From NCBI GenBank assembly GCA_009699025.1, contig WLOZ01000023.1, positions 1 to 12,888 on the forward strand: a stretch of DNA of 12,888 nucleotides, read 5' to 3'. Positions 1,457 through 12,888 of the stretch are shown in pieces. The translations under genes were made by a program, and so were the position numbers. The notes beneath the pieces were generated by a model. The model did not search any database, was not told the DNA's origin, and was given only the letters and a program-made list of their open reading frames with translations. This stretch comes from Actinomycetota bacterium. Lineage in GTDB: Bacteria > Actinomycetota > Actinomycetes > S36-B12 > CAIYMF01. Numbering within the stretch: the first letter of the stretch is position 1; each line of letters starts with the position of its first letter.

Positions 1457-2800
1457 CTACGGGCGAGAGGCCAACCATGGCGCGTGCCCGATGGCTTCCA
1501 GCGCCCCGTCGAGCAGCCGGACCAACTCGACCACCTCATCTGCGCCGATTGTCAGAGGAGGCGAGATGATGACGGAGTTGTTCAGCGGGGCAATGCCAGC
1601 GGGGTAGACGATCAGGCCCCGGTCGAAGCATGCGTCCACGAGCGCCGTGGCGGCGTTGTGGCTGGCGGCCGGTACTCGCCGTGTCGTGGGGTCCTCGACC
1701 AGCTCGAACCCCCACAGCAGCCCCCTCCCGCGCACGTCCGCGATGAAGCGGTACCGCGTCGCCAGGTCGAGCAGGCCCGCCTGGAGCTGATCGCCCCGCT
1801 GCCGTGCGGCTGCCAGCAGGTCGTGGCTTTCGAGGTAGTCGAGGACGGCGAGGCATGTGGCGGCGCCGAGTGGGTTGCCGGAGAAGGTGTGGCCGAATGG
1901 AGCCACGCCGCTGCCGTCGCGGAAGGCCGATACGACGTGCTCGCGCAATAGGACTGCACCGACGGGCGAGTATCCGGCGCTCAGCCCCTTGCCAGCCACG
2001 AGCAGGTCGGGGACCACATCCTCCGCGCTGCAGGCGAACCAGTCGCCTGTCCGTCCGACACCGGTGATGACCTCGTCCAGGATCAGGAGGATGTCGAGGC
2101 GATCGCACATCTCGCGAAGGCGGCGGAGGTAGCCGTGCGGGGGAACCAGGACTCCACCGGCCGCGCCCACGATCGGTTCGACGATGACGGCCGCGACGCT
2201 CGCCGGGTCCTCAGCGATGACCGCAGCCTCGAACTCGGCGATTGAGCGCGCGGCGTAGTCCTGCTCTGTTTCGCCGGGGCGTGCGTAGCGGTACTGGTAT
2301 GCGGGCGGGCCGACGGGGAAGGCATGCAACAAGGAGCCGTAGTCGGGCCGGCGCCCGGGATGGCCGGACATGGACAGTGAGCCCAGGGTCATGCCGTGGT
2401 AGCTGATGTGGCGTCCCAGAACCTTGATTTTCTCCGGTCGGCCAACCTCGCGCCAGTACCCGAGTGCGGCGCGCATGGCGAACTCGGTTGCCTCCGAGCC
2501 GCTGCTCACGAAGAAGGCCCAGTTGAGGTCGCCCGGAGCCTTGGCCGTGAGACGGCTCGCCAGCTCCTCAGCCGGCTGATTCGTGAACTGGGTCCGGTAC
2601 GTGAACGCGACGTGCCGGAGCTGCTCATCAATGGCCGCCGTGATCTCCGGTACTCCGTGGCCGAGGCTGGCGGTCATCGGTCCGCCCGAGCCATCGAGGT
2701 ACCGCTTGCCGTCCGTGTCGTACAGGTAGACGCCGCGGCCGTAGTCGACGGTGGGGTACCTGCGGTGCAGGTGCTGCTTGAGCAGGGCGCTGGAGGTCAT
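1457..2800 (-). CDS. class III PLP-dependent aminotransferase (omega-amino acid / GABA type)
   Basis: This 447-residue protein is of normal length for the fold-type I class III aminotransferases (GabT, PuuE, beta-alanine or omega-amino acid:pyruvate enzymes). Visible landmarks are the SSGSEATE phosphate-binding segment at 99-106, YHGMTLGSLSMSG at 134-146, LDEVITGVGRTG with the pyridine-binding Asp242, AGKGLSAGYSPVGA with the PLP lysine Lys271, and GHTFSGNP at 303-310. ATG at 2800 is chosen over longer in-frame versions because of an AGGAG about 7 bases upstream and because its ATGA overlaps the stop of the upstream hydrolase gene (translational coupling). As last gene of the minus-strand operon it probably deaminates the omega-amino acid released by that hydrolase. 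The exact amino donor is not readable. Its 3' end abuts a transposase remnant, so the C-terminus may have been altered. Confidence 0.9.
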   Translation of the reverse strand: MTSSALLKQHLHRRYPTVDYGRGVYLYDTDGKRYLDGSGGPMTASLGHGVPEITAAIDEQLRHVAFTYRTQFTNQPAEELASRLTAKAPGDLNWAFFVSSGSEATEFAMRAALGYWREVGRPEKIKVLGRHISYHGMTLGSLSMSGHPGRRPDYGSLLHAFPVGPPAYQYRYARPGETEQDYAARSIAEFEAAVIAEDPASVAAVIVEPIVGAAGGVLVPPHGYLRRLREMCDRLDILLILDEVITGVGRTGDWFACSAEDVVPDLLVAGKGLSAGYSPVGAVLLREHVVSAFRDGSGVAPFGHTFSGNPLGAATCLAVLDYLESHDLLAAARQRGDQLQAGLLDLATRYRFIADVRGRGLLWGFELVEDPTTRRVPAASHNAATALVDACFDRGLIVYPAGIAPLNNSVIISPPLTIGADEVVELVRLLDGALEAIGHAPWLASRP

Positions 2801-3564
2801 TGCTGCTCCTGTGCTGTGGGGTGGAGTGGAACGGCAGCTCGGGCTCGAGCGGCAGCGTCGATGAGTGCACTGAAGAACCGGTGCATCCGGGGCTTCTCGG
2901 GGTGCCACTGGACACCGAGTGCAAAGCGCTTCATCGGCCACTCGAGGGCCTCGACACATCCGTCGGACGTCGCCCATCCGCTGATGCTGGCGCCGGAGGC
3001 GACCTGAGCCACCCCTTGGTGGTGGTGCGAGTTCGTCTCGATCGGTGCATCGCCCACGATGCTTGCCAGTACCGACCCGCTCTCGACCTGGGTCTCGTGG
3101 AAGGTTGCATGATCCAGATGCCCAGGCGCTGGCCGGTGGTCTGAGTAGCCCGCGTGTACGAGGTCCTGGTGAAGTGTTCCGCCTGCTGAGACGTTCATGA
3201 CCTGAAGCCCGCGGCAGATGCCGAGGATCGGCACGTCCCATTCCATCGCACGGCGCACGAGCGGCAGCTCGTAGCTGTCGCGAACGTGGGAGGTCTCCTC
3301 TAGCAGCTCATGCGGGTGGTGGCCGTACTCCGACGGGTCGAGGTCTGCGCCTCCGACGAGAAGCAGACCGTCGACCCGGCTGAGCACGGCATCGAGGGCT
3401 TCCTGTTCAGCGCCGCCCAGGGGCGGCACGATCAGCGGAAGACCACCCGCTTCCCACAACGCGGCGATGTAGGTGTCGGCGACAAGATTCGCGTGCTCGT
3501 GCCAGAAGCCCCACTGGGCCGTGATGAACACCGCCGGGATCCCGATGACCGGCCTGGACGCCAT
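2797..3564 (-). CDS. PuuD-like gamma-glutamyl amide hydrolase (class I glutamine amidotransferase fold, peptidase C26)
   Basis: This 255-residue protein matches the length and motifs of gamma-glutamyl-gamma-aminobutyrate hydrolases. It has GLLLVGGADLDPSEYG near 66-81, nucleophile elbow GICRGLQVMNV with Cys117, TNSHHHQGV at 178-186, and ALGVQWHPEKP with catalytic His221 and Glu223. Enzymes of this family cut gamma-glutamyl amides to glutamate plus the free amine-bearing product in the cytoplasm. Paired with the glutamine synthetase-like ligase at 6492, it would remove the glutamyl mask after chain oxidation. It starts 30 bases after the aldehyde dehydrogenase gene and overlaps the aminotransferase by 4 bases. 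The ATG at 3564 has a GGAGAGG upstream. PuuD is the closest named relative, but substrate identity is not proven, so no symbol is given. Confidence 0.88.
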   Translation of the reverse strand: MASRPVIGIPAVFITAQWGFWHEHANLVADTYIAALWEAGGLPLIVPPLGGAEQEALDAVLSRVDGLLLVGGADLDPSEYGHHPHELLEETSHVRDSYELPLVRRAMEWDVPILGICRGLQVMNVSAGGTLHQDLVHAGYSDHRPAPGHLDHATFHETQVESGSVLASIVGDAPIETNSHHHQGVAQVASGASISGWATSDGCVEALEWPMKRFALGVQWHPEKPRMHRFFSALIDAAARARAAVPLHPTAQEQQ

Positions 3565-3594
3565 GGCTCTGCCTCTCCGTCGTGGTCCGCGAAG

Positions 3595-5073
3595 TCAGAT
3601 CGGGAGCGACGGGTCGTCGACGCCGATGGTGCGACGACCCTGGAAGAACCGGACCATGTCGGTAGGCCCGTGGCCCCCGATGCCGGCGTTATTCCAGAAC
3701 GTCTGCTCCGAGCCGTCCGCGAGGTCCGCGAGCTTGCAACCGTTCACCCGCACCTCGCCGACAGGGATCTTCGCCGCGACCTTCAGAGCTGCTGCGGTGT
3801 CCTGGCCGAAGACGAATCCCGCGAGCCCGGTCTCCGGGCCGTCCGCAGCGGCCAGCGCGGCGGCCACCGAAGGTACGGAGTGGACACTGATGACCGGCCC
3901 GAAAAGCTCCCGCGTCGACACCTCCGCGGGCACGCCGACGATGATCGACGGGGCGAAGAACCAACCGTCCAGTGCCGGCAACCTGCAGGGCGTGAGGCGC
4001 TCGCCACCGGCAGCGACGAGCCGATCCACCTCGTTCTCGAGACGTGTGCGGTGCAGTTCGTACGCGAGCGGCCCGACGTCGGTGCCCTCGTCAAGGCAGT
4101 GTCCGACGGTGAGATCCGCGAGCCGACGCATCAGTGCGTCGACGAGCTCGTCGTACTTCGCCTCGGAGACCAGCACCTTGCCCGGCGCCTCGCACCACTG
4201 CCCGTTGAGCTTGGTCATCCCGTCGATGAGTGCTGCCGCCGTGAGCTCGATGTCCGCGTCATCCAGCACGATCGCCGGGTTGTGGCCGCCCAGCTCGAGC
4301 TGGAGTGCAGTGAAGTGCGGCGCAGCCGCCGCGGCGACCGCCCGCCCAGCCGGTGCTCCGCCGGTGAAGGAGATGGCTCGGACGCGCGGGTCCGACGCGA
4401 GCTGGGAACCGACAGCAGCCGCACCGTGCACGAGCTGGAAGGTGGCGGCGGGCAAGTCATGGCTGCGGAGGACGTCGTTGATGACCTCGGCCACGATCTG
4501 ACAGCCTCCAGGTGCCCACTCGGAGGGCTTGAGGATCACGGGGCATCCCGCAGCGAGAGCACTGGACAGTTTGGCAACCGCTACGAAGGTGGGTGCGTTC
4601 CACGGCGCGAGCACGACTGCTGGCCCCAGGGGTCGCCGCAACAGCTGCACCCCGCGCTCCTCGTCGAGCACGTCCCTCTCGCCGATCGAGCGCAGCTGGG
4701 CGGCCGAGCCGAGGACACGGGGTCCGATGTAGGAGGCCATCTTCTGCGATACGCGGATGGCATTGCCGGTCGACATCGCGTCCTCGTACGCCAGGTCGGA
4801 TGCGCGGAGCGTCAGTCCGGCCGCGATGTCCTGCAGGACGGTGACGCGTAGCTCGAGTGAGGCCTCCGCGAGCAGACCACTGCGGTGAAGTGCGTCGGCG
4901 GCCTCGAGCGCCCGTTCGACGTCCGTGGCGGAGGTCGCCAGCTGAGGCTGCAAGGGCGAACCGGTGTTCGGGTCGGCCAATGTGCCCAGCTGCGTCATGG
5001 GGGTCTGCCACACGCCGTCGATCAGGTCGACCTGCGAGCGGGGCGGGCGGATCTCGCTCTGGTTCTGGGGCAA
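3595..5073 (-). CDS. NAD(P)-dependent aldehyde dehydrogenase
   Basis: This 492-residue protein has the length and motifs of the ALDH superfamily: APWNAP with the oxyanion Asn159, KPSE with Lys182, FTGG at 236-239, LELGGHNPAIV with the general base Glu260, NGQWCEAPGKV with nucleophile Cys294, and the ELFGPV segment. It oxidises an aldehyde to a carboxylate, presumably the (gamma-glutamyl)amino-aldehyde made upstream in this pathway. The region around the catalytic Cys departs from the common GQxCxAGxR pattern (Glu-Ala-Pro-Gly-Lys instead), suggesting a less studied subfamily. The start is TTG at 5071-5073, preceded by GAGGA at a spacing of about 6; the first downstream ATG (Met26) would remove part of the N-terminal fold. 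It is the second gene of the minus-strand operon, 59 bases after the alcohol dehydrogenase. Confidence 0.9.
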   Translation of the reverse strand: MPQNQSEIRPPRSQVDLIDGVWQTPMTQLGTLADPNTGSPLQPQLATSATDVERALEAADALHRSGLLAEASLELRVTVLQDIAAGLTLRASDLAYEDAMSTGNAIRVSQKMASYIGPRVLGSAAQLRSIGERDVLDEERGVQLLRRPLGPAVVLAPWNAPTFVAVAKLSSALAAGCPVILKPSEWAPGGCQIVAEVINDVLRSHDLPAATFQLVHGAAAVGSQLASDPRVRAISFTGGAPAGRAVAAAAAPHFTALQLELGGHNPAIVLDDADIELTAAALIDGMTKLNGQWCEAPGKVLVSEAKYDELVDALMRRLADLTVGHCLDEGTDVGPLAYELHRTRLENEVDRLVAAGGERLTPCRLPALDGWFFAPSIIVGVPAEVSTRELFGPVISVHSVPSVAAALAAADGPETGLAGFVFGQDTAAALKVAAKIPVGEVRVNGCKLADLADGSEQTFWNNAGIGGHGPTDMVRFFQGRRTIGVDDPSLPI

Positions 5074-5132
5074 CGTGTCCTCGCGGTGTCAGTGCTTCGC
5101 CGCACGAGAGCGGCCGAGCATGGTTTCGGTGG

Positions 5133-6239
5133 TCATGAGGTGGGTGCGACGACGATGCGCACCGTATGTGCATCCCTCATCCGGGCGAGCCCATCGTTGA
5201 TCTGGTCGAAGGGGATGACTGCCGTGACCATGCCGTCAAGGTCGAGGCGACCCCGGCGGTAGTGGTCAACGAACATCTCCACGTCGCTGAGGAAGCGGTT
5301 GGCACCCATGTAGGCGCCCTGGATGCGGCGATCGCCATAGACGAGGGCGTCGGCCGAGATCGTGAGTGTCTCGCCCGCGCGCATGAGGCCGAGAATGGTG
5401 GCGGTCCCGTTGGGTGCCAGCAGGTCGAAGGCGAGCGCCGCCGTCACGGGACTCCCGACGGCCTCGATGGCGTGAGTGACGCCGCCTGGGATCAGCTCGT
5501 GAATCTGGGCCACGGTGGAGACGGAGTCGCTCTGCGACAGCAGCACGTCCGTAGCGCCGAACCGCATGGCGATCTCGAGCTTGGCGGGCACGGTGTCCAG
5601 GGCGACGATGCGTCGTGCGCCAGCGAGACGAGCGCCCTGGATGGCGGCGATTCCTACGCCTCCGCATCCGATCACGGCGACCGTGTCCTGACTGCCGATC
5701 TGCGCACCGTGGACGACGGCGCCGACGCCCGTCGCGACACAGCATCCGAGGAGGCAAGCCACTGCGGCCGGGATGTCGTCGGGCACGCCGGCAAGGGCGT
5801 CCTCGGACGCCAGGAACGCCTCCCCGAAGGCGCCGATTCCGCCAAGCGTCTGGACCGGCGTGCCGTCGGGAAGAGTGACTCGCGGACGCGGACGGAAGCG
5901 CATCTCTGAGACGCGGGCGCACTGTGTGGGGCGTCCCGCCAGGCAGTGATGGCATCCGCCACATGAGGGTGTCACAGTCGCGACGACCCGCATGCCTGGG
6001 CGCAGCCGGGTGACCTGAGGCCCGACCGACTCGACGATGCCGGCGACCTCATGCCCGAGCAGGGCCGGTTTGTCGATGCTGAGCGAGCCCTCCACGTAGT
6101 GCACATCGCTGTGGCAGAGTCCGATGCGCTCGGTCCGCACCACTACCTCCCGCGGCAGGGGTTCGTCTAGGAGCACGTCGGTGATCTGAAGCTCAGCGCT
6201 GCCCTCCAGCAGGAGGGCAGCCTTCATGGGTGTAGGCAC
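5133..6239 (-). CDS. zinc-dependent alcohol dehydrogenase (MDR superfamily)
   Basis: This 368-residue protein belongs to the medium-chain zinc alcohol dehydrogenases, near the class III-like NAD-dependent enzymes common in actinobacteria. Catalytic zinc ligands are Cys42, His63-Glu64 and Cys166 or Cys167. The structural zinc site is C93-G-G-C96-H-H-C99 with Cys107. The Rossmann motif is GCGGVG at 191-196, and the Asp in VALD (Asp215) points to NAD rather than NADP. It should interconvert an alcohol and an aldehyde ahead of the neighbouring aldehyde dehydrogenase. Its presence suggests that the pathway passes through a primary alcohol, for example the product of P450 hydroxylation. The GTG start at 6239 is preferred because AGGAG lies 7 bases upstream; an in-frame ATG four codons later is the alternative. 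It is first in the minus-strand operon. Confidence 0.9.
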   Translation of the reverse strand: MPTPMKAALLLEGSAELQITDVLLDEPLPREVVVRTERIGLCHSDVHYVEGSLSIDKPALLGHEVAGIVESVGPQVTRLRPGMRVVATVTPSCGGCHHCLAGRPTQCARVSEMRFRPRPRVTLPDGTPVQTLGGIGAFGEAFLASEDALAGVPDDIPAAVACLLGCCVATGVGAVVHGAQIGSQDTVAVIGCGGVGIAAIQGARLAGARRIVALDTVPAKLEIAMRFGATDVLLSQSDSVSTVAQIHELIPGGVTHAIEAVGSPVTAALAFDLLAPNGTATILGLMRAGETLTISADALVYGDRRIQGAYMGANRFLSDVEMFVDHYRRGRLDLDGMVTAVIPFDQINDGLARMRDAHTVRIVVAPTS

Positions 6240-6305
6240 TCGCTTGCTCCTGTTCAGACGGTGGCGTCGATGTCACCGAGTCCGGAGCCGCAGCGGGCCG
6301 CGAAA

Positions 6306-6342
6306 GAGAGTGAAGCATCGGTAGCGCGTGCCGTCCACTCTC
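6306..6342. promoter_or_regulatory. inverted repeat, candidate operator near the dehydrogenase operon
   Basis: GAGAGTG (6306-6312) and CACTCTC (6336-6342) form a perfect 7-base inverted repeat with 23 bases between. It lies 67 to 103 bases upstream of the alcohol dehydrogenase start, a plausible activator distance. Function is inferred from position only. Confidence 0.35.
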
Positions 6343-6365
6343 CGGTGCGTCCCCGTCCGCAGCAA

Positions 6366-6380
6366 TGTGCGCCTTGCACA
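6366..6380. promoter_or_regulatory. short inverted repeat TGTGC-N5-GCACA
   Basis: A perfect 5-base dyad with a 5-base spacer sits in the middle of the divergent region. A TTGCAC at 6374-6379 overlaps its right arm and resembles a -35 box, but no good -10 follows at the expected distance. Confidence 0.3.
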
Positions 6381-6398
6381 CTGGCGGGCTAGGAGAAT

Positions 6399-6431
6399 CC
6401 CCCGATCGCATACTGCGTCCCGGATCGGGGG
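6399..6431. promoter_or_regulatory. inverted repeat CCCCCGATC-N15-GATCGGGGG, candidate operator
   Basis: A perfect 9-base inverted repeat (6399-6407 and 6423-6431) is the strongest dyad in the divergent region. Its ends lie 60 to 92 bases upstream of the ligase start codon. It could be the binding site of the regulator at 10513-12300, or a hairpin in the 5' leader if transcription starts upstream of it. Confidence 0.45.
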
Positions 6432-6491
6432 GCACTTGTATGAGCACCAAGCGGTCGAGCCGTCGGCCACCGAACGAAGAGGAGCCAAGCG

Positions 6492-7865
6492 TTGAGCAGC
6501 ACCGAGGCGCGGCAGGCGGCGGAGGCCTTCCTTACGGAGCACGGCATCACGACCGTGCGCATCGCGGGGACGGACATCGACGGCCTGCTGCGCGGCAAGC
6601 GCATCCCGGTCGACTACTTCCTCGAGAGCGTGTGGGACAAGGGCAGCAACATTGCCGACATCCTCTTCGGCTGGGACGTGGCCGACGAGCCGATGACCAA
6701 CCTGACGTTCACGGGATGGCATACCGCCTACCCGGACGTCACGCTCCTGCCGGATCTCTCGACGCTGCGCCTCGCTCCATGGGACCCGAATGCTGCGACC
6801 GTGCTCTGCGACATCGTCCGGCTGGACGGTTCTCCGTTGGAGCTCTCTCCTCGTACTCTGCTGAAGAACGTGGTGTCCCAGGCACGGGCTGCTGGCTATG
6901 AGCCCGCTGCGGCCTATGAGTTCGAGTTCTACGTGTTTAAGCAATCGCCGGAGGAGCTGGCTGCCAGTTCGTGGCGCGATGCTGAGCCGCTCACGTCGGG
7001 AAACCGCACCTACAGCATCTACCGCGGCACGTCGACGGAGTACCTGATCGGCGAGATCCGTGAGTCGCTGCGTGAGTGCGGGATCTTCATCGAGGCCAGC
7101 AACAGCGAGCACGGCCCCGGGCAGTTCGAAGTGAACATCCACTACTCGGATGCCGTGTCTGCGGCGGACCAGGCTGTGATCCTCAAGCACGCCGTCAAGG
7201 AGATCGCGGTGAAGCACGGCCACACTGCGACGTTCATGGCCAAGGTGCGGTCGGAGTGGGCTGGGTCCTCCGGCCATCTGCACCAGAGCCTGAGCAACCT
7301 CGATGGAACTGCGGCATTCGCCAACCCGAGCGACTCTGGCAGCCTCTCGTCGGTTGGCCTGAACTACATCGCCGGCTTGGTCGAGATGGCCCCGGCGTTC
7401 ATGGCCCTGTACTGCCCCACAGTGAACTCGTACAAGCGCATCGAGGGTGGTAGTTGGGCCGGGTCCAGCGCCACGTGGGGCCGGGACAACCGGACGGTGG
7501 CGTGCCGCGCGATCCCGGCGACCGGACACGCGGCCCGCGTGGAGAACCGCATCGCCGGCGCCGACGCGAACCCCTACCTCGTGGTCGCCGCCAACGTCGC
7601 CGCCGGTCTGCACGGCGTCGTCAACGGGTTAACCCCGCCTGCCGCCATGACCGGTAACGCCTACGAGGCGACTGACGGTTCCGCTGTGCTCCTGCCGACG
7701 TCGCTCCAGGCCGCGACGGCCGCGCTCCGAGCCAGCGAGACGGCTCGCAAGCTCCTGGGCGATGCGTTCGTGGACCATTTCGCACTGACCCGTGACTGGG
7801 AGACGCGCCAGTTTGGTCGAGCCGTCACCGACTGGGAGACCGCCCGCTACATGGAGATGATCTGA
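6492..7865 (+). CDS. glutamine synthetase-like gamma-glutamyl-amine ligase
   Basis: This 457-residue protein has the catalytic architecture of glutamine synthetase: YEFEF with metal ligands Glu143/Glu145, SEHGPGQFE with Glu206 and Glu213, GHLHQS with His262/His264, NSYKR at 312-316, Arg334 in RDNRT, and RVENR with Glu351. It lacks the usual type I motifs around the ammonium-binding loop and shows NAYEAT where the classical adenylylation NLYDLP lies. In PuuA, IpuC, GlnA3/GlnA4 and similar proteins this pattern goes with ATP-dependent coupling of glutamate to an organic amine. The nearby PuuD-like hydrolase strongly favours that role over nitrogen assimilation. The TTG start at 6492 has AGGAG at a 7-base spacing. 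It leads the plus-strand operon, 62 bases before the P450. The amine substrate is unknown. Confidence 0.88.
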   Translation: MSSTEARQAAEAFLTEHGITTVRIAGTDIDGLLRGKRIPVDYFLESVWDKGSNIADILFGWDVADEPMTNLTFTGWHTAYPDVTLLPDLSTLRLAPWDPNAATVLCDIVRLDGSPLELSPRTLLKNVVSQARAAGYEPAAAYEFEFYVFKQSPEELAASSWRDAEPLTSGNRTYSIYRGTSTEYLIGEIRESLRECGIFIEASNSEHGPGQFEVNIHYSDAVSAADQAVILKHAVKEIAVKHGHTATFMAKVRSEWAGSSGHLHQSLSNLDGTAAFANPSDSGSLSSVGLNYIAGLVEMAPAFMALYCPTVNSYKRIEGGSWAGSSATWGRDNRTVACRAIPATGHAARVENRIAGADANPYLVVAANVAAGLHGVVNGLTPPAAMTGNAYEATDGSAVLLPTSLQAATAALRASETARKLLGDAFVDHFALTRDWETRQFGRAVTDWETARYMEMI

Positions 7866-7880
7866 GCGGCCGTGCCGCTC
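7864..7880 (+). other. intercistronic hairpin between ligase and P450 genes
   Basis: GAGCGGC (7864-7870) and GCCGCTC (7874-7880) form a perfect 7-base-pair stem with a 3-base loop that starts within the ligase stop codon. No U-tract follows, so full termination is unlikely. It may set mRNA stability or partial termination between the ligase and the P450 module. Confidence 0.45.
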
Positions 7881-7927
7881 CCCCGACTCAACCCACACGT
7901 CACCGACCTGTCGTCCAAGGAGTACGC

Positions 7928-9088
7928 ATGACTCAGCAGCCTGTCAGGGACTTCGATTTCCACGGCGAGGCCCTCGACAACATCTTCGAGACCTACCGTG
8001 AACTGCGCTCCGAGTGCCCCGTCGGATGGAGCGAGCGCTACGGCGGCTTCTGGTTCATGATGAAAAACGAGGACATCTTCAACGCCGAGCAGAATTGGCA
8101 GACCTTCTCTGTCGCGCCGTCGATGTTGATGCCCGCGATCGGCACGGACGAGCCGATGATCCCCCTCGACATCGACCCACCGGCTCATACCGGCTACCGA
8201 CGCCTGCTGCTGCCTCTGTTCACGCCTTCCAAGGTCGACGAACTCACGCCGTTCGTCGAGGCGACGGCACGGGAGCTGGCCGATGCAGTGATGGAGCACG
8301 ATGTCGCAGACATCGGCATCAACTTCGCGCGGCCGCTGCCGACGATCGTCTTCAGCAGTCTCGTGGGATACCCGCGTGAGGACTGGCACCTCTTTGACGA
8401 CTGGATCGACCGGATCTTCGCGCGCACCGATGACGAAGAGGACGCGCGGATCGCCGGCGACGAGGTCCGTGCCTATCTCGAAGCGCTCGTCGAGCGTCGC
8501 CGCAACGAGCCCCACAAGGACGACATCACCGGGCGTCTGCTCACCGCAGAGGTGGACGGCCGCCCGCTCACCCACGAGGAGATCATGAACTACCAGTACC
8601 TCCTCTTCGTGGCCGGCCTCGAGACGACTGCTTGGACTATCCGCGCGGGCCTCTGGTACTTGGCGAATCACCCCGAAGACCAGCAGCGGCTGCGTGACGA
8701 GCCCGAGTTGGTGTCATCGGCCGTCGAGGAGTTCCTGCGCACATTCGCGCCAGTGCAGGGCATGGCACGTACCGCGCTGCAGGACATTGAGGTGGGCGGC
8801 TGCCCCATCAAGAAGGGGGATCGAGTGGTGCTTGCGTTCGGCTCGGGTAACCGAGACGAGGCTGCCTACGATAACCCGGACGACGTGATCATCGACCGGG
8901 TCGAGAACCGTCACCTCGCCTTCGGCGTAGGCATCCACCGCTGCCTCGGCTCGAATCTGGGGCGGCGTGAGGTGGTGGTCGCACTGCGCGAGTTCATCGC
9001 CCGCGTCCCCCGGTTCGAGGCCGTCGACCCCTCCCAGCAGTGGCACGGCGTCGGTCCGCTCACCGTTCGTTTCATTCGCGAGGCGTGA
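7928..9088 (+). CDS. cytochrome P450 monooxygenase
   Basis: This 386-residue soluble P450 has no membrane anchor, as usual for bacterial class I enzymes. Landmarks are the C-helix HTGYRR (His87, Arg91), I-helix AGLETT at 229-234 with the oxygen-activating Thr, EFLR (Glu268, Arg271) as ExxR, and the heme loop FGVGIHRCLG with Cys339 as thiolate ligand. It inserts one oxygen atom into its substrate using electrons from the ferredoxin and reductase encoded just downstream. In this setting the substrate is probably an amine or its gamma-glutamyl amide. Alpha-hydroxylation of a cyclic amine would open the ring; terminal hydroxylation would feed the alcohol dehydrogenase. ATG has AAGGAG 5 bases upstream. 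I cannot assign a CYP family; the morpholine/piperidine P450s (CYP151) are a contextual analogy, not a sequence match I have verified. Confidence 0.93.
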   Translation: MTQQPVRDFDFHGEALDNIFETYRELRSECPVGWSERYGGFWFMMKNEDIFNAEQNWQTFSVAPSMLMPAIGTDEPMIPLDIDPPAHTGYRRLLLPLFTPSKVDELTPFVEATARELADAVMEHDVADIGINFARPLPTIVFSSLVGYPREDWHLFDDWIDRIFARTDDEEDARIAGDEVRAYLEALVERRRNEPHKDDITGRLLTAEVDGRPLTHEEIMNYQYLLFVAGLETTAWTIRAGLWYLANHPEDQQRLRDEPELVSSAVEEFLRTFAPVQGMARTALQDIEVGGCPIKKGDRVVLAFGSGNRDEAAYDNPDDVIIDRVENRHLAFGVGIHRCLGSNLGRREVVVALREFIARVPRFEAVDPSQQWHGVGPLTVRFIREA

Positions 9089-9093
9089 GGCTC

Positions 9094-9291
9094 ATGAAGG
9101 CCCAGGTCAACCCGAGCAAGTGTCAGGGGCACAACCGCTGCATGATCATCGCGCCTGAGCTTTTTGAGGTGGATGACTACGGCTACGCCATGGTGCAGGG
9201 CGACGGCGAGGTCGCCCCAGAGCTGGTGGAGAAGGCGCGGGCGGCCGCCGCCAACTGCCCTGAGCTGGCCATCCTCCTCTCCCAGGAGTGA
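9094..9291 (+). CDS. [3Fe-4S] ferredoxin of the P450 system
   Basis: This 65-residue acidic ferredoxin has the cluster motif KCQGHNRC (Cys10, Cys16) and a distal NCP (Cys54). The position that holds a fourth cysteine in [4Fe-4S] proteins is His13, which is typical of the small [3Fe-4S] ferredoxins serving actinobacterial P450s. It carries single electrons from the reductase to the P450. ATG at 9094 is chosen because homologous ferredoxins begin just before this VNPSKC strand; a longer in-frame version would overlap the P450 end by 49 bases and its added residues do not resemble the family. It starts 5 bases after the P450 stop. Confidence 0.92.
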   Translation: MKAQVNPSKCQGHNRCMIIAPELFEVDDYGYAMVQGDGEVAPELVEKARAAAANCPELAILLSQE

Positions 9292-9292
9292 C

Positions 9293-10474
9293 GTGACGGA
9301 CGTCCGTGTGCTCATCGTCGGCGGCGGTCTCGCCGGCTGCACCGTTGCGAAGATGCTCGAAGACGAGGGGCGAGGCGGCGATGTTCTCATCGTCGACAGA
9401 GATCCGCAGGCGCCGTATGACCGGCCGCCTCTCACGAAGGCGTTCCTCGGGCCTAAGGACCGTATGGTGCAAAGCCCCCCGTGGGCTCCGGCCGACGTCC
9501 CCTGGCTGGCCGACTGCGCCGTGGCCGTGGACCTGCTTGCCCGGGCGGTACAGCTCGCCTCCGGGCGCGTTCTCCGTGCGCAGACACTGGTGCTGGCAGC
9601 CGGGTCGCTGGCCCGCGACCTGCCCGGCCGGGACAACCGCGTCCTGACGCTGAGGACCGTATCGGACGCGCTGAGGGTGCGCGAGATCCGGTCCGGCGGC
9701 GCGGGGTGCTTCCTCGTGGAGGGCGCCGGCCCGCTGGGCATGGAACTGGCGTCGACGCTGGCCGATGACGGCGCCTCCGTAACCGTGGTGGACCCGGCGT
9801 CGGCCCCCATGGAGAGGCTGCTAGGTGGCGCGCTGGCAACCGAGGTGGCCTCGTGGGCAGCCGAGGCCGGGGTGCGCCTCAGGCTCGATACCAAGGTGGT
9901 GCACGCTGTTCCCGTCGGTGACCGCCACGCGGTGGAGGCTGTCTTTAGCGATGGCGAGGCCGAGGCATTCGACTGCATGATCACGGCGGTCGGCAGTGTG
10001 CCCGCACCGATGATGCTGCACGGATCACGGGGCGCCGTCGGCGCCGCTGTCGTGGACGATATGCGCAGGCTCGTCGACGTGGACGGGTCGCACTTCGAAG
10101 GAGTCTTCGCGGTCGGTGACCTCGCCTTCCACCGTGACGCCGACCGCTCCCTCGTACGCAGCGAGTCTTGGACGGCTGCCAAGAACGATGGGGAAGCGGT
10201 AGGACGTCAGATCTTGGGGCTTCCGGCGGCCGCCGAGGCTGTTCCCTACTTCTGGACGCGGCAGTTCGGGCGCATGGTCCAGGTCCTGGGAGCGATCCCT
10301 CTGGGCGCTGAGGTCGTCCCCATCGCCGTGGTACCGAAGACGGGAGGGATGTTGTACCAGGCGTCGATCGACGGCTCTACTGTAGGTTTCGTGGGTGTCA
10401 ACGCTCAGCGCCTGGTGGCCATGCTGCAGATGCAGGGTGGTGCCGTTGCCGAGTGGGTTGCGCCAGAGGTGTGA
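9293..10474 (+). CDS. FAD-dependent ferredoxin reductase of the P450 system
   Basis: This 393-residue flavoprotein has the oxygenase-coupled NADH ferredoxin reductase fold. The FAD dinucleotide motif is VLIVGGGLAG at 6-15, and the family signature YDRPPLTKAFL follows. A second dinucleotide motif for NAD(P)H (EGAGPLGMELA) is followed by an Asp at the end of the next strand, and the second FAD contact is FAVGDLA. It passes electrons from NAD(P)H to the ferredoxin. GTG at 9293-9295 gives the expected N-terminus immediately before the FAD motif, has AGGAG 4 bases upstream within the ferredoxin stop region, and starts 1 base after that gene; the longer in-frame version reads through the ferredoxin gene and is not credible. 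ATG is usually common in this family, so the start rests on context. Confidence 0.9.
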   Translation: MTDVRVLIVGGGLAGCTVAKMLEDEGRGGDVLIVDRDPQAPYDRPPLTKAFLGPKDRMVQSPPWAPADVPWLADCAVAVDLLARAVQLASGRVLRAQTLVLAAGSLARDLPGRDNRVLTLRTVSDALRVREIRSGGAGCFLVEGAGPLGMELASTLADDGASVTVVDPASAPMERLLGGALATEVASWAAEAGVRLRLDTKVVHAVPVGDRHAVEAVFSDGEAEAFDCMITAVGSVPAPMMLHGSRGAVGAAVVDDMRRLVDVDGSHFEGVFAVGDLAFHRDADRSLVRSESWTAAKNDGEAVGRQILGLPAAAEAVPYFWTRQFGRMVQVLGAIPLGAEVVPIAVVPKTGGMLYQASIDGSTVGFVGVNAQRLVAMLQMQGGAVAEWVAPEV

Positions 10475-10477
10475 CGG

Positions 10478-10494
10478 GACGGCAGCCTGCCGTC
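10478..10494 (+). other. intercistronic hairpin between reductase and regulator genes
   Basis: GACGGCA (10478-10484) and TGCCGTC (10488-10494) form a perfect 7-base-pair stem with a GCC loop, 4 bases after the reductase stop. There is no U-tract. It has the same geometry (7-pair stem, 3-base loop) as the hairpin at 7864-7880, at the other side of the P450 module. It may reduce read-through into the regulator gene. Confidence 0.45.
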
Positions 10495-10512
10495 GCTCGT
10501 GAAAGGTGCTGA

Positions 10513-12300
10513 GTGCCCAAGAAGCAGACCGCCGGCTCCCTCGCAGGGGGACTGCACGCTGCAGACGTCGAGCTGCTGCACGAGTCCCTGCGTGATGCGG
10601 AGAGGCGCGCGGCGCTGCTGACTCAACTGATCGAGGCGCTCAACCAGTCCCGGGATGCGCTCACGCTGCTTCAGCGATCGGTTGAGGCGGTCGTGCGGGC
10701 CATCGACGCAGGCGGCGCTTTCGTCTACCTATGGGACGCGGACGCGGGGCGCTTCGTTCTCCGCGCCGCGACCGAAGGCCATCAGAAGGCGTTCGTCGGG
10801 TTGATCTCGTTGCGCCCAGGCGAGGGGCTGACCGGTTGGTCGGCGCTCATGCGCCGCCCGGTGCTACTGGGAGACAAGCTCAGCGAAGACCCGCGGGTCG
10901 TCACGTTCCCGGAGCTTCAGGAGGATGAGTTCCGCTCGGGAATGATAGTTCCGATCCTGGTTCCGGGCGGAGACACACTGGGCGTGTTCTCCATCTACTC
11001 GACGGAGAAGGACTCCTTCACTGAGCACGACCTCGCCCTCGTCGACGAGGTTGCGAAACTCCTGGCGAGCGGGATCGACAGGGCGAACGTCGTAGACCAG
11101 TGGGAGCGTCAATCGGCAACGCTGGAGTCGCTGGTCGCGGCCGCCGATCGCGCACCCGAGGACGCGCACGAATGCCTGCTCGACCTGGCACATCGGTGCA
11201 TGGCGCTCGTTCCTGCGGACGTCTACATCGTCGAGTCGTTGGACGCAGAGGACGGCCATCCGGATGCGGTCGCGCTGGGGCTGCGCCGCGAGTCGGACGA
11301 AGAGGCCGGGGCCGTGGCCGTTCTCTCACCGACGGCGGCCAAGGGGATCGCCAGCGACAGGATGCCGCCGCTGCAGGCGGTCACCGTGGCGCTCAGGCGC
11401 GCGGATCGGACTCTTGGCGTGATCACCGCCCACAGGGCCGCTCCCTTCACCGTGGAGGATCGAGCCCTGTTGTCGGCTCTGGCGGCGTACGGCGCTGCGG
11501 CACTTCAGGCGTTGTCGAACCCGGGGAGTCAGGAGTCCGTGCTGAGCCAGCTCCTCAACACCTCGGACGAGAGCCGAGTGGCCGCCATCCTCGAGAGCCG
11601 GGGATGGCGTCAGGGTACCCCCGTCGTTCCCGTCGTTCTGCTGTGCGACCCCGAGATGCGGCTCACCAGCAGGCGGAGTCTCGACAGCGTGACCCAGACG
11701 GTCGAGTCGGTCTTCGTCGGCAAGCGTCGGCGCAGCCTTCGGGCCGCGTCCGGAGTTGTTGGCGCCCTGCTCTTCGGCCGCGTCTTGGACCAGGAGCTTG
11801 CCCTGACTGCGGCGGAACTGCAGCATGAAGTCGGCGTGGCACTGACCGACAAGGGTCAAGTGGCAGGGGTGGCCGTGGGACTCGGCCGCTGCGTCACCGA
11901 CCCGCAGGCGATCGCTGTCGAGCTTCGTTCAGCGTACGACGCCGCCGGCTGGGCGGCTCTGACGGGAACAGGCGTACGCTCGTGGATCGCTAGCGACAAC
12001 GATCTGACTCACAAGCTGTTCGCGGTGAGTCGGGAACTGGCTCCGGATGTCGCGCGGTATGTGGCCAGGATGCGACGGATCAAGGACTACGACGAGCGGC
12101 ACGGGACCGATCTGCTCCAGACGTTGGCGGTGTTCGTCCGTGAGCGCGGCGCCGCGCAGCAGGCGTCGGAGCAGTTGTTCATCCATCGCAACACCTTGCG
12201 CCAACGGCTCAACAAGATCTCGAGCCTGCTCGACGAGCCGATCGAGCAGGTCGAGGACTGGCTGCCCGTCTCACTGGCCGTCAAGGTCCTGAAGACATGA
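10513..12300 (+). CDS. tandem-GAF PucR-family transcriptional regulator
   Basis: This 595-residue cytoplasmic regulator starts with a helical, possibly coiled-coil segment (about 15-60). A GAF domain follows at about 45-190 (GEGLTGW, RSGMIVPIL, GVFSIYS) and a second, weaker GAF-like domain at about 218-347. A CdaR-like degenerate GGDEF region spans about 370-500. The C-terminal PucR-type helix-turn-helix lies at about 535-585, with the recognition region LFIHRNTLRQRLNKI. PucR-family proteins usually activate catabolic operons in response to a bound ligand; GAF domains are the likely sensor for the amine or an intermediate. It is the last gene of the plus operon, 38 bases after the reductase, so it may be autoregulated. 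The GTG start has AAAGG about 7 bases upstream. Likely targets are the inverted repeats at 6306-6431. Confidence 0.9.
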   Translation: MPKKQTAGSLAGGLHAADVELLHESLRDAERRAALLTQLIEALNQSRDALTLLQRSVEAVVRAIDAGGAFVYLWDADAGRFVLRAATEGHQKAFVGLISLRPGEGLTGWSALMRRPVLLGDKLSEDPRVVTFPELQEDEFRSGMIVPILVPGGDTLGVFSIYSTEKDSFTEHDLALVDEVAKLLASGIDRANVVDQWERQSATLESLVAAADRAPEDAHECLLDLAHRCMALVPADVYIVESLDAEDGHPDAVALGLRRESDEEAGAVAVLSPTAAKGIASDRMPPLQAVTVALRRADRTLGVITAHRAAPFTVEDRALLSALAAYGAAALQALSNPGSQESVLSQLLNTSDESRVAAILESRGWRQGTPVVPVVLLCDPEMRLTSRRSLDSVTQTVESVFVGKRRRSLRAASGVVGALLFGRVLDQELALTAAELQHEVGVALTDKGQVAGVAVGLGRCVTDPQAIAVELRSAYDAAGWAALTGTGVRSWIASDNDLTHKLFAVSRELAPDVARYVARMRRIKDYDERHGTDLLQTLAVFVRERGAAQQASEQLFIHRNTLRQRLNKISSLLDEPIEQVEDWLPVSLAVKVLKT

Positions 12301-12435
12301 GCCCCCGGATGAACTCGTTCCAGTTCCCGGCTATTCGGGGCCGTTGCATCTGGGACTGCATCCACGAGGCACCAACCGTGTGTCCACGGTGGGCTCTTGA
12401 AGCCCGAATACGTTGCTAGGCAACGGTTATGCCAG
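12301..12435. other. non-coding gap between regulator and tRNA-Arg with two small hairpins
   Basis: There is no gene here. Two adjacent short dyads are visible: GGGCT/AGCCC at 12391-12405 (5-base loop) and CGTTGC/GCAACG at 12411-12425 (3-base loop). They could serve as a weak bidirectional terminator for the converging regulator and tRNA genes, or as recombinase arm sites beside the attachment core. Neither has a T-run. Confidence 0.35.
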
Positions 12436-12508
12436 TGGCCCCGGCGCGATTCGAACGCGCGACACACGGTTTAGGAAACCGATGCTCTATCCCCTGAGCT
12501 ACGGGGCC
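12436..12508 (-). tRNA. tRNA-Arg (anticodon CCU)
   Basis: The minus strand folds into a complete 73-base cloverleaf. The acceptor GGCCCCG pairs with CGGGGCC with discriminator A, the D stem is GCTC/GAGC with an eight-base loop (AGGGGATA) containing the G pair, the anticodon loop is TTCCTAA, and the T arm is GCGCG/CGCGC with loop TTCGAAT. The outermost anticodon pair (27-43) is U-U. CCA is not encoded. It reads the AGG codon, a rare arginine codon in high-GC genomes. Its 3' part is repeated at 1130-1183 and 161-197, marking it as an insertion target. Confidence 0.95.
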
Positions 12509-12564: not shown

Positions 12565-12888
12565 GTGACATCCCTGAGCGTGGCGCTCGACATGGCCGTG
12601 GTGATCGCCACCTTCGCGGTGATCTTCCCCGCCGAGTTGCCAGACAAGTCGTTCATCGCCGCGCTGGTGCTGGCTACTCGGTATCCGCGGCTCATGGTGT
12701 GGCTGGGCGCTTCGGCCGCCTTCGTGGTTCACATGGCTATCGCGGTGTCCGCGGGAGCGTTGCTGGGGCTGCTACCCCAGCGCCTGGTGCTCGGCGTGGC
12801 TGCGGCCCTGTTCGCCTTTGGGGCCGTCAATCTCATCCGAGGCGGCCTCCACGCGCGCGCCGAGGAGGAGGCCGAGGAGGAGGCTGAG
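12565..12888 (+). CDS. TMEM165/GDT1 (UPF0016) family membrane transporter, N-terminal part
   Basis: The first 108 codons run off the window end. The protein has three hydrophobic segments (about residues 7-20, 31-65, 72-90). The first carries the family hallmark AELPDKSFIAALVLATRY at about 23-40, a variant of the E-x-G-D-K-S/T motif with Pro replacing Gly, as I recall for actinobacterial members. The family transports Mn2+ or Ca2+, probably in exchange for protons; bacterial members act as manganese exporters. A Glu/Ala-rich hydrophilic stretch begins at about residue 96 (cytosolic loop between the two repeats). The GTG start at 12565 is the first in frame after a TGA; Met10 is an alternative and the ribosome-binding site is weak. 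It lies on the far side of the tRNA and is probably core chromosome rather than island. Confidence 0.85.
   Translation, partial: MTSLSVALDMAVVIATFAVIFPAELPDKSFIAALVLATRYPRLMVWLGASAAFVVHMAIAVSAGALLGLLPQRLVLGVAAALFAFGAVNLIRGGLHARAEEEAEEEAE

Follow-up and report, generated by a model that had tools for sequence, protein, structure and literature searches.

A putative Ipu-type alkylamine gene block, with a glutamine synthetase-like ligase beside a cytochrome P450, set between tRNA-Arg copies in an Actinomycetota contig

Background

The described system closest to the locus studied here is the Ipu scheme, in which IpuC converts isopropylamine to gamma-glutamyl-isopropylamide, a multicomponent cytochrome P450 yields gamma-glutamyl-L-alaninol and an amidotransferase is postulated to free L-alaninol, on which an alcohol dehydrogenase (ADH) and an aldehyde dehydrogenase (ALDH) then act (PMC6776027). 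Many Ipu proteins of the atrazine degrader Paenarthrobacter aurescens TC1 have been quantified by proteomics, their roles being predictions from earlier work (PMC6776027). Passages citing the 2002 work on Pseudomonas sp. KIE171 (ipuABCDEFGH/ipuI, with accessions listed for ipuA to ipuI) give a route via gamma-glutamylisopropylamide and gamma-glutamyl-L-alaninol; the KIE171 ligase is named IpuA in one citing passage and IpuC in others. We analysed 12,888 nucleotides (nt) of DNA from an Actinomycetota bacterium (assembly GCA_009699025.1, contig WLOZ01000023.1), the whole of which is called the window below. Its gene block at 1457-12300 would, judging from sequence, likely be a catabolic islet of Ipu type for a short-chain alkylamine, a glutamine synthetase (GS)-like ligase acting first and a P450 second. 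The KIE171 study is reportedly the only one on an Ipu set to hold mutant evidence, with L-alaninol as a free intermediate.

Three other systems resemble the block in part. The Puu pathway of E. coli shares its gamma-glutamyl masking logic and has a C26 hydrolase, an ALDH and a class III aminotransferase, but uses the FAD amine oxidase PuuB where the window has a P450 and an ADH. In the excerpts describing them, the Atd/Npa systems (aniline/1-naphthylamine) also place a GS-like ligase first, with an oxygenase acting on the gamma-glutamyl amide and a glutamine amidotransferase-like hydrolase, and differ in using a Rieske dioxygenase instead of a P450 and in handling aromatic amines. The Pip/Mor systems (CYP151) have a P450, a ferredoxin and, in the partial accounts of their relatives, a GS-like neighbour, but there the oxidation substrate is a free cyclic amine.

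Results and discussion

Gene content of the block

An earlier reading of the window from its letters (the sequence-only reading) listed nine genes here, and all are present as open frames with intact catalytic motifs at the positions below. They form two divergent runs 252 nt apart. The minus run encodes, in transcription order, the zinc ADH, the ALDH, the PuuD-like hydrolase and the aminotransferase, and the plus run the ligase, the P450, the small ferredoxin, the reductase and the regulator.

1457-2800, minus: class III aminotransferase (PF00202, E 2.4e-93; pyridoxal phosphate-lysine motif GKGL)
2797-3564, minus: PuuD-like C26 hydrolase, predicted gamma-glutamyl amide hydrolase (PF07722, E 3.3e-63)
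3595-5073, minus: ALDH (PF00171)
5133-6239, minus: zinc ADH, N,N-dimethyl-4-nitrosoaniline-dependent-like subfamily (PF08240/PF00107)
6240-6491, no strand: divergent intergenic region, presumed regulatory from its position
6492-7865, plus: GS-like gamma-glutamyl-amine ligase, IpuC-like (PF00120)
7928-9088, plus: cytochrome P450, IpuD-like (PF00067)
9094-9291, plus: small iron-sulphur ferredoxin of single-cluster type (PF13459/PF13370)
9293-10474, plus: flavin adenine dinucleotide (FAD) ferredoxin reductase (PF07992)
10513-12300, plus: regulator with GAF domain and PucR-type helix-turn-helix (PF13185, PF13556)

The families assigned in the sequence-only reading are borne out by Pfam and by motifs, namely FGVGIHRCLG, AGLETT and EFLR in the P450, GICRG and WHPE in the hydrolase, GQWC and ELGG in the ALDH, and GHE and CGGCHHCLAGRPTQC in the ADH. 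Family hits lie far over the Pfam cut-offs, so chance is of no concern. The hydrolase and aminotransferase genes overlap by 4 nt (ATGA), and the mechanically called frame 1457-3241 therefore does not mark the true gene start. Between the operons (6150-6600) no sigma-70 or terminator consensus was found. As the sequence-only reading had also observed, the block holds no dedicated amine transporter: family profile scans of the window proteins gave none among its annotated genes, and sequence comparison gave no window match to the permeases of TC1 or of Agrobacterium AT13. We treat a permease as accessory and not as defining for an Ipu-type pathway, the core enzymes having no need of one.

Lineage of the ligase and the P450

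The ligase is 61% identical to the protein annotated ipuC on the TC1 plasmid pTC1, 56% to the pTC2 IpuC and 49% to the AT13 protein, against about 32-33% to E. coli PuuA and 28% to GlnA. The column of E. coli Glu327 holds Trp in the window ligase and in all ten Ipu-type sequences compared, Tyr in PuuA and Phe in four others; that of the ammonia-site residue Asp50, which is poorly aligned, holds Thr in the window ligase. An ordinary ammonia-assimilating glutamine synthetase was rejected on the change of Glu327 to Trp, the IpuC lineage and the distance from GlnA, and a ligase active on ammonia alone, which would have told against the sequence-only reading, appears unlikely from the Glu327 column. 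This IpuC-lineage ligase directly adjoins the P450 (gene order at 6492-9088).

The P450, which has its own ferredoxin and reductase beside it, belongs to the same lineage. Its ten best plasmid records in tblastn are 54-61% identical and the next is at 39%; the P450s of pTC1 and pTC2 stand at 60.9% and 55.9%. The hosts of the ten are Paenarthrobacter, Arthrobacter, Pseudarthrobacter, Microbacterium, Agrobacterium and Aminobacter; an atrazine site is given as the source of one record, and several other hosts are, like TC1, linked to atrazine. In a tree of 73 rows, whose root is a drawing choice and whose distant rows are long, the window and 11 others form a 12-row clade (support 100/99), which joins 42 rows including the P450s of TC1, Agrobacterium AT13 and Aminobacter SR38 at 99/94; a 10-row acidimicrobial group comes next. 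On this tree the window P450 is a sister group within the TC1 P450 family and not part of the TC1 group proper.

We also compared six substrate-recognition regions, with borders placed by general P450 anatomy; in this weak comparison identity to the pTC1, pTC2 and AT13 P450s was 62, 63 and 56% inside the regions vs 59, 51 and 53% outside. With the same assumed borders, regions 1, 4, 5 and 6 were more alike (56-80%) and regions 2 and 3 less (29-48%), and three P450s without a linked GS-like gene gave 37, 31 and 32% inside vs 38, 44 and 39% outside.

Recurrence in other genomes

A genome scan returned 45 loci (given L numbers here), 39 of them with P450 identity of at least 50%; neighbourhood thresholds were set after inspection of the locus tables. 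A GS-like gene at least 34% identical to that of the window lies within 5 kb of the P450 at 31 of the 39, and one at least 48% identical at 22. Within 10.5 kb of the P450 at these 22 Ipu-type loci we found a relative of the regulator at 19 and a C26-type hydrolase at 20, as well as the ADH (at least 50%) at 8, the ALDH (at least 45%) at 7 and the aminotransferase (at least 58%) at 8, the last three counts being limited by the fetched flanks. Whole genomes held the aminotransferase (E<=1e-100) in 13 of the 39 and the ADH (E<=1e-90) in 15; in 9 of the 13 genomes with the aminotransferase, that gene shares a contig with the P450 and lies within about 12 kb of it, and for L027 it falls outside the fetched contig. 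In a sample of 197 genomes from a single family, centred on one carrier, the P450, the ligase and the aminotransferase all occur in the same two, one of which is the centre genome.

As a proxy for sharing a contig we used equal longest-contig size above 5 kb among the protein-database matches listed. This gave at least 17 links between P450 and ligase, at least 10 between P450 and aminotransferase and at least 13 between ligase and aminotransferase (one of these 13 being the window's own contig), where simulated chance averaged 0.03 links and never exceeded 2. One member of the window P450 clade (P0019) is linked to an aminotransferase in this way. The sequence-only reading had asked for shared occurrence of the two operons in other genomes, and this is partly so: some genomes have the accessory genes as well as the core, but the three nearest ones reached (L005-L007, 73%) do not show this.

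The distribution of the Ipu-type P450 is sporadic; it was found in 3 of 59 relatives of the L007 genome, at 73-74%. In the Prescottella order, only the centre genome of the 150 searched has an Ipu-type P450 (57%; next best 42%), and the ligase search gave a match at E<=1e-70 in 157 of 298 genomes, the best after the centre being 41%. Ligase paralogues at 29 loci (L070-L098) have no P450 in the roughly 1.5 kb on either side and a PuuD-type hydrolase in those flanks at 18; they look like polyamine or ethanolamine ligases.

Two further groups were observed. A number of acidimicrobial and other Actinomycetota loci (L029, L034, L036-L041) carry a related P450 with a different GS-like gene (34-37% identical to that of the window) about 2-3.6 kb away, the gene between them being weakly ADH-like in some; this may be a second ligase-P450 module. 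L030, L031 and L032 hold alphaproteobacterial P450s of the same lineage as the window P450 with a ferredoxin, two reductase-like genes and a short-chain dehydrogenase/reductase (SDR), with no GS-like gene within 5 kb.

Comparison with described clusters

On pTC1 and pTC2 the ipuC gene, P450, ferredoxin, reductase, amidotransferase and GAF regulator occur together. The window shares these kinds of gene, the hydrolase being of C26 type, as well as an ADH and an ALDH, and a class III aminotransferase is found on pTC2. The TC1 clusters differ in holding an SDR, an alanine dehydrogenase and amino-acid permeases, and in a P450-side hydrolase that adjoins the P450 and belongs to another C26 lineage; the block studied here is in turn flanked by two tRNA-Arg copies, one intact and one degraded. 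On the AT13 and SR38 plasmids a reductase, ferredoxin, ligase, P450, ferredoxin and hydrolase stand in a row, an order reportedly shared by the KIE171 ipu genes. The whole set of the window recurs at L009 (Nocardioidaceae, CP059259.1), where the ligase is 61, P450 60, aminotransferase 66, ADH 63 and ALDH 64% identical and a ferredoxin, reductase, regulator and hydrolase are also present; an SDR was not found there either. L009 differs in gene order, and its hydrolase, beside the P450, is just 32% identical to that of the window.

The accessory enzymes show the same mixture. The hydrolase has the class I amidotransferase fold (PF07722, with Cys and His motifs) in a lineage other than that of TC1: it is 59-61% identical to those of L005 and L007, with which it groups at 95/98 apart from the TC1 P450-side hydrolases, 36% to the one beside the pTC1 P450 and 32% to E. 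coli PuuD. Hydrolase lineage varies between groups. Hydrolases of Ipu-type clusters fall into at least two Pfam groupings, scoring higher with PF00117 or with PF07722 (L003:13381-14223, L001:7928-8659, L001:11236-11961); pTC1 holds both kinds, and the AT13 hydrolase scores higher with PF00117. The ALDH is 64-65% identical to those of L001, L005 and L009 and the ADH 63-65% to those of L001, L002, L009 and L010 (against pTC1 or pTC2 proteins, 63-65% for the ADH and 65% for the ALDH); with TIGR03989 the ADH scores 268 bits, below the cut-off of 440. The aminotransferase is 66-71% identical to its counterparts in the Ipu-type loci L002, L009 and L022.

The sequence-only reading saw a Puu-like logic in the block. 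The glutamyl-mask logic holds, but the term does not extend to the proteins: identity to E. coli is 32% for the hydrolase (PuuD), 29% for the ALDH (PuuC) and 30% for the aminotransferase (PuuE), the eight window proteins compared (the ferredoxin left out) gave no match to PuuB, PuuR or PuuP at E<=1e-3, and NCBIfam Puu models score far below cut-off. The Puu pathway proper was therefore rejected, with no PuuB and with 29-33% identity to PuuA, PuuC, PuuD and PuuE.

Proposed route and alternatives

The gene content, motifs, lineage and recurrence with relatives are established here. The gene set probably tags a small amine with glutamate, lets the P450 hydroxylate the tagged amine and then degrades it as a nutrient. 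The GS-like ligase would join the amine to the gamma-carboxyl of glutamate at the expense of ATP, and the P450, fed by the ferredoxin and the reductase, would hydroxylate the gamma-glutamyl amide so formed on its alkyl portion. The resulting alcohol would be oxidised by the zinc ADH and then the ALDH, the C26 hydrolase releasing glutamate before or after these oxidations, and the class III aminotransferase would remove the amino group of whichever amino alcohol or amino acid is released; the GAF-PucR protein may control the divergent operons. The step order published for relatives is ligase, P450, hydrolase, ADH and ALDH, and by analogy the window would follow it. The substrate is presumably an alkylamine; isopropylamine itself is a possible but doubtful candidate.

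The sequence-only reading had left two orders side by side. Ligase first, with the P450 acting on the gamma-glutamyl amide, is now the better supported because ligase and P450 both share a lineage with the TC1 Ipu clusters, for which that order is published; for the same reason it is not new chemistry, contrary to the earlier description of it as less usual. An ADH is sensible only with hydroxylation and a hydrolase only with glutamylation; taken with the Ipu lineage of both key enzymes, the preferred and probable order has the ligase acting before the P450. In the other order a CYP151-type P450 would hydroxylate a free cyclic amine of the pyrrolidine, piperidine or morpholine type, and the opened amino-aldehyde would be glutamylated and oxidised. 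The presence of a hydrolase, an ALDH and an aminotransferase would fit a gamma-glutamyl amino-aldehyde and, according to passages on Gulosibacter, GS genes (tags 438 and 3052) adjoin P450 genes (437 and 3051) whose products share 53 and 52% identity with PipA and MorA. This order gained no support, however: the window P450 lies in the Ipu lineage at 54-61% and groups with Ipu P450s in a tree whose compared sequences include no CYP151, and the ADH would be left without a duty. We regard this order as improbable. Still less probable, to the point of being remote, is that the P450 has some unrelated hydrophobic substrate and stands beside a ligase of ordinary nitrogen assimilation. Among solved structures the P450 best matches P450cin in sequence (E 2.5e-60), and the substrate of P450cin is a terpene. 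The match is a point against the sequence-only reading, which had named P450 homologues of unrelated substrate as grounds for giving it up, but Ipu P450s are far closer, the ligase lacks Glu327 and is distant from GlnA, and ligase and P450 stand side by side at 31 of 39 loci. A terpene P450 was rejected on this ligase neighbourhood.

Within the ligase-first route, the differing hydrolase lineages and the order ADH, ALDH, hydrolase, aminotransferase in the minus operon leave room for a Puu-like finish in which the mask is kept: the glutamyl group would remain in place during both dehydrogenase steps, after which the hydrolase would free an omega-amino acid for the aminotransferase, for example gamma-aminobutyric acid (GABA) from n-butylamine. 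The grouping of the hydrolase with L005 and L007 and the absence of an alanine dehydrogenase from the window, unlike pTC1 and pTC2, fit such a finish. Gene order is not reaction order, however, and close aminotransferases (62-71%) also occur in the isopropylamine-type clusters of pTC2 and AT13, so that an omega-amino acid is not implied. Free L-alaninol is reportedly the intermediate in KIE171. The published Ipu scheme has it as well (PMC6776027). Taken together we hold the mask-kept order to be rather unlikely. Less likely again is the full version: plain n-alkylamines would receive the mask, the P450 would hydroxylate the end of the chain, oxidation would proceed to the acid with the mask in place, and the omega-amino acid then freed (such as GABA or beta-alanine) would be transaminated, the islet being mobile as a unit between tRNA-Arg copies.

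Several observations weigh against an Ipu-type route. The TC1 Ipu labels rest on similarity, and the 12-row P450 clade of the window stands beside, not inside, the clade with the TC1 P450s. Asp50 is no clean marker, since L005 and L007 retain Asp there. A GS-like gene of at least 34% identity is missing within 5 kb at 8 of the 39 loci; L008 among these has a GS-like gene at 28%, L023 and L035 lie at contig ends, and L030-L032 and L042 have wide flanks and yet a P450 with no GS-like gene within 5 kb. The genomes of L005-L007 gave no aminotransferase or ADH at the thresholds used, and two of these loci have no reductase. A class III aminotransferase is not the expected choice for alanine, and sequence comparison found no window counterpart to three TC1 cluster proteins, the alanine dehydrogenase, the SDR and the permease.

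The tRNA-Arg setting

The catabolic block sits between tRNA copies, in 11,232 bases, with a transposase remnant just inside one end.

160-232, minus: tRNA-Arg-like fragment, 3' part kept and 5' part diverged (repeat family D1)
1129-1202, minus: degraded tRNA-Arg(CCT) copy at the far end of the islet (ARAGORN; Rfam tRNA 34.8 bits)
1268-1453, minus: C-terminal remnant of an integrase-core (IS3-like) transposase, a marginal match (PF13333 rve_2, 23.3 bits, cut-off 22, E 7e-5)
12435-12508, minus: intact tRNA-Arg(CCT) (ARAGORN; Rfam tRNA 63.3 bits)

The 3' part of the intact tRNA is repeated in the copy at 1129-1202 (53/54 nt identical) and in the fragment at 160-232 (36/37 nt of the 3' end, with no ARAGORN or Rfam tRNA call), and the block therefore has the appearance of a tRNA-associated islet. 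It may have moved as one unit. No empty tRNA-Arg site was found, no tRNA lies near L005, L006 or L007 (0 each), no integrase is among the identified window genes, and neither a near DNA match in plasmids or phages nor a close relative in viral contigs was found. All three tRNA-Arg(CCT) copies, one intact and two degraded, are on the minus strand and keep the 3' part, which suggests that a tRNA gene was a target of insertion more than once. Between two of the copies a DM13-domain protein is encoded (303-935), which has a stretch rich in Ser, Thr and Ala, and the window end cuts off a GDT1 (UPF0016-type) cation/proton antiporter gene after its first part (12565-12888).

Conclusions

The core chemistry of this block is already published and its accessory parts are partly swapped; a literature search of open-licence papers found no publication on the islet or on the window P450 clade. 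The Ipu-type core of masking ligase and P450 is far wider than atrazine degraders, with relatives in Actinomycetota and Pseudomonadota. That hydrolase, alanine dehydrogenase, SDR and aminotransferase are exchanged while the core stays fixed indicates which steps are modular. Were the mask-kept hybrid true, it would connect unfunctionalised alkylamines with the GABA route in Actinomycetota of water or soil, and if the ligase-first route is confirmed the ligase-P450 pair would allow aerobic use of alkylamines in soil and water to be recognised from sequence.

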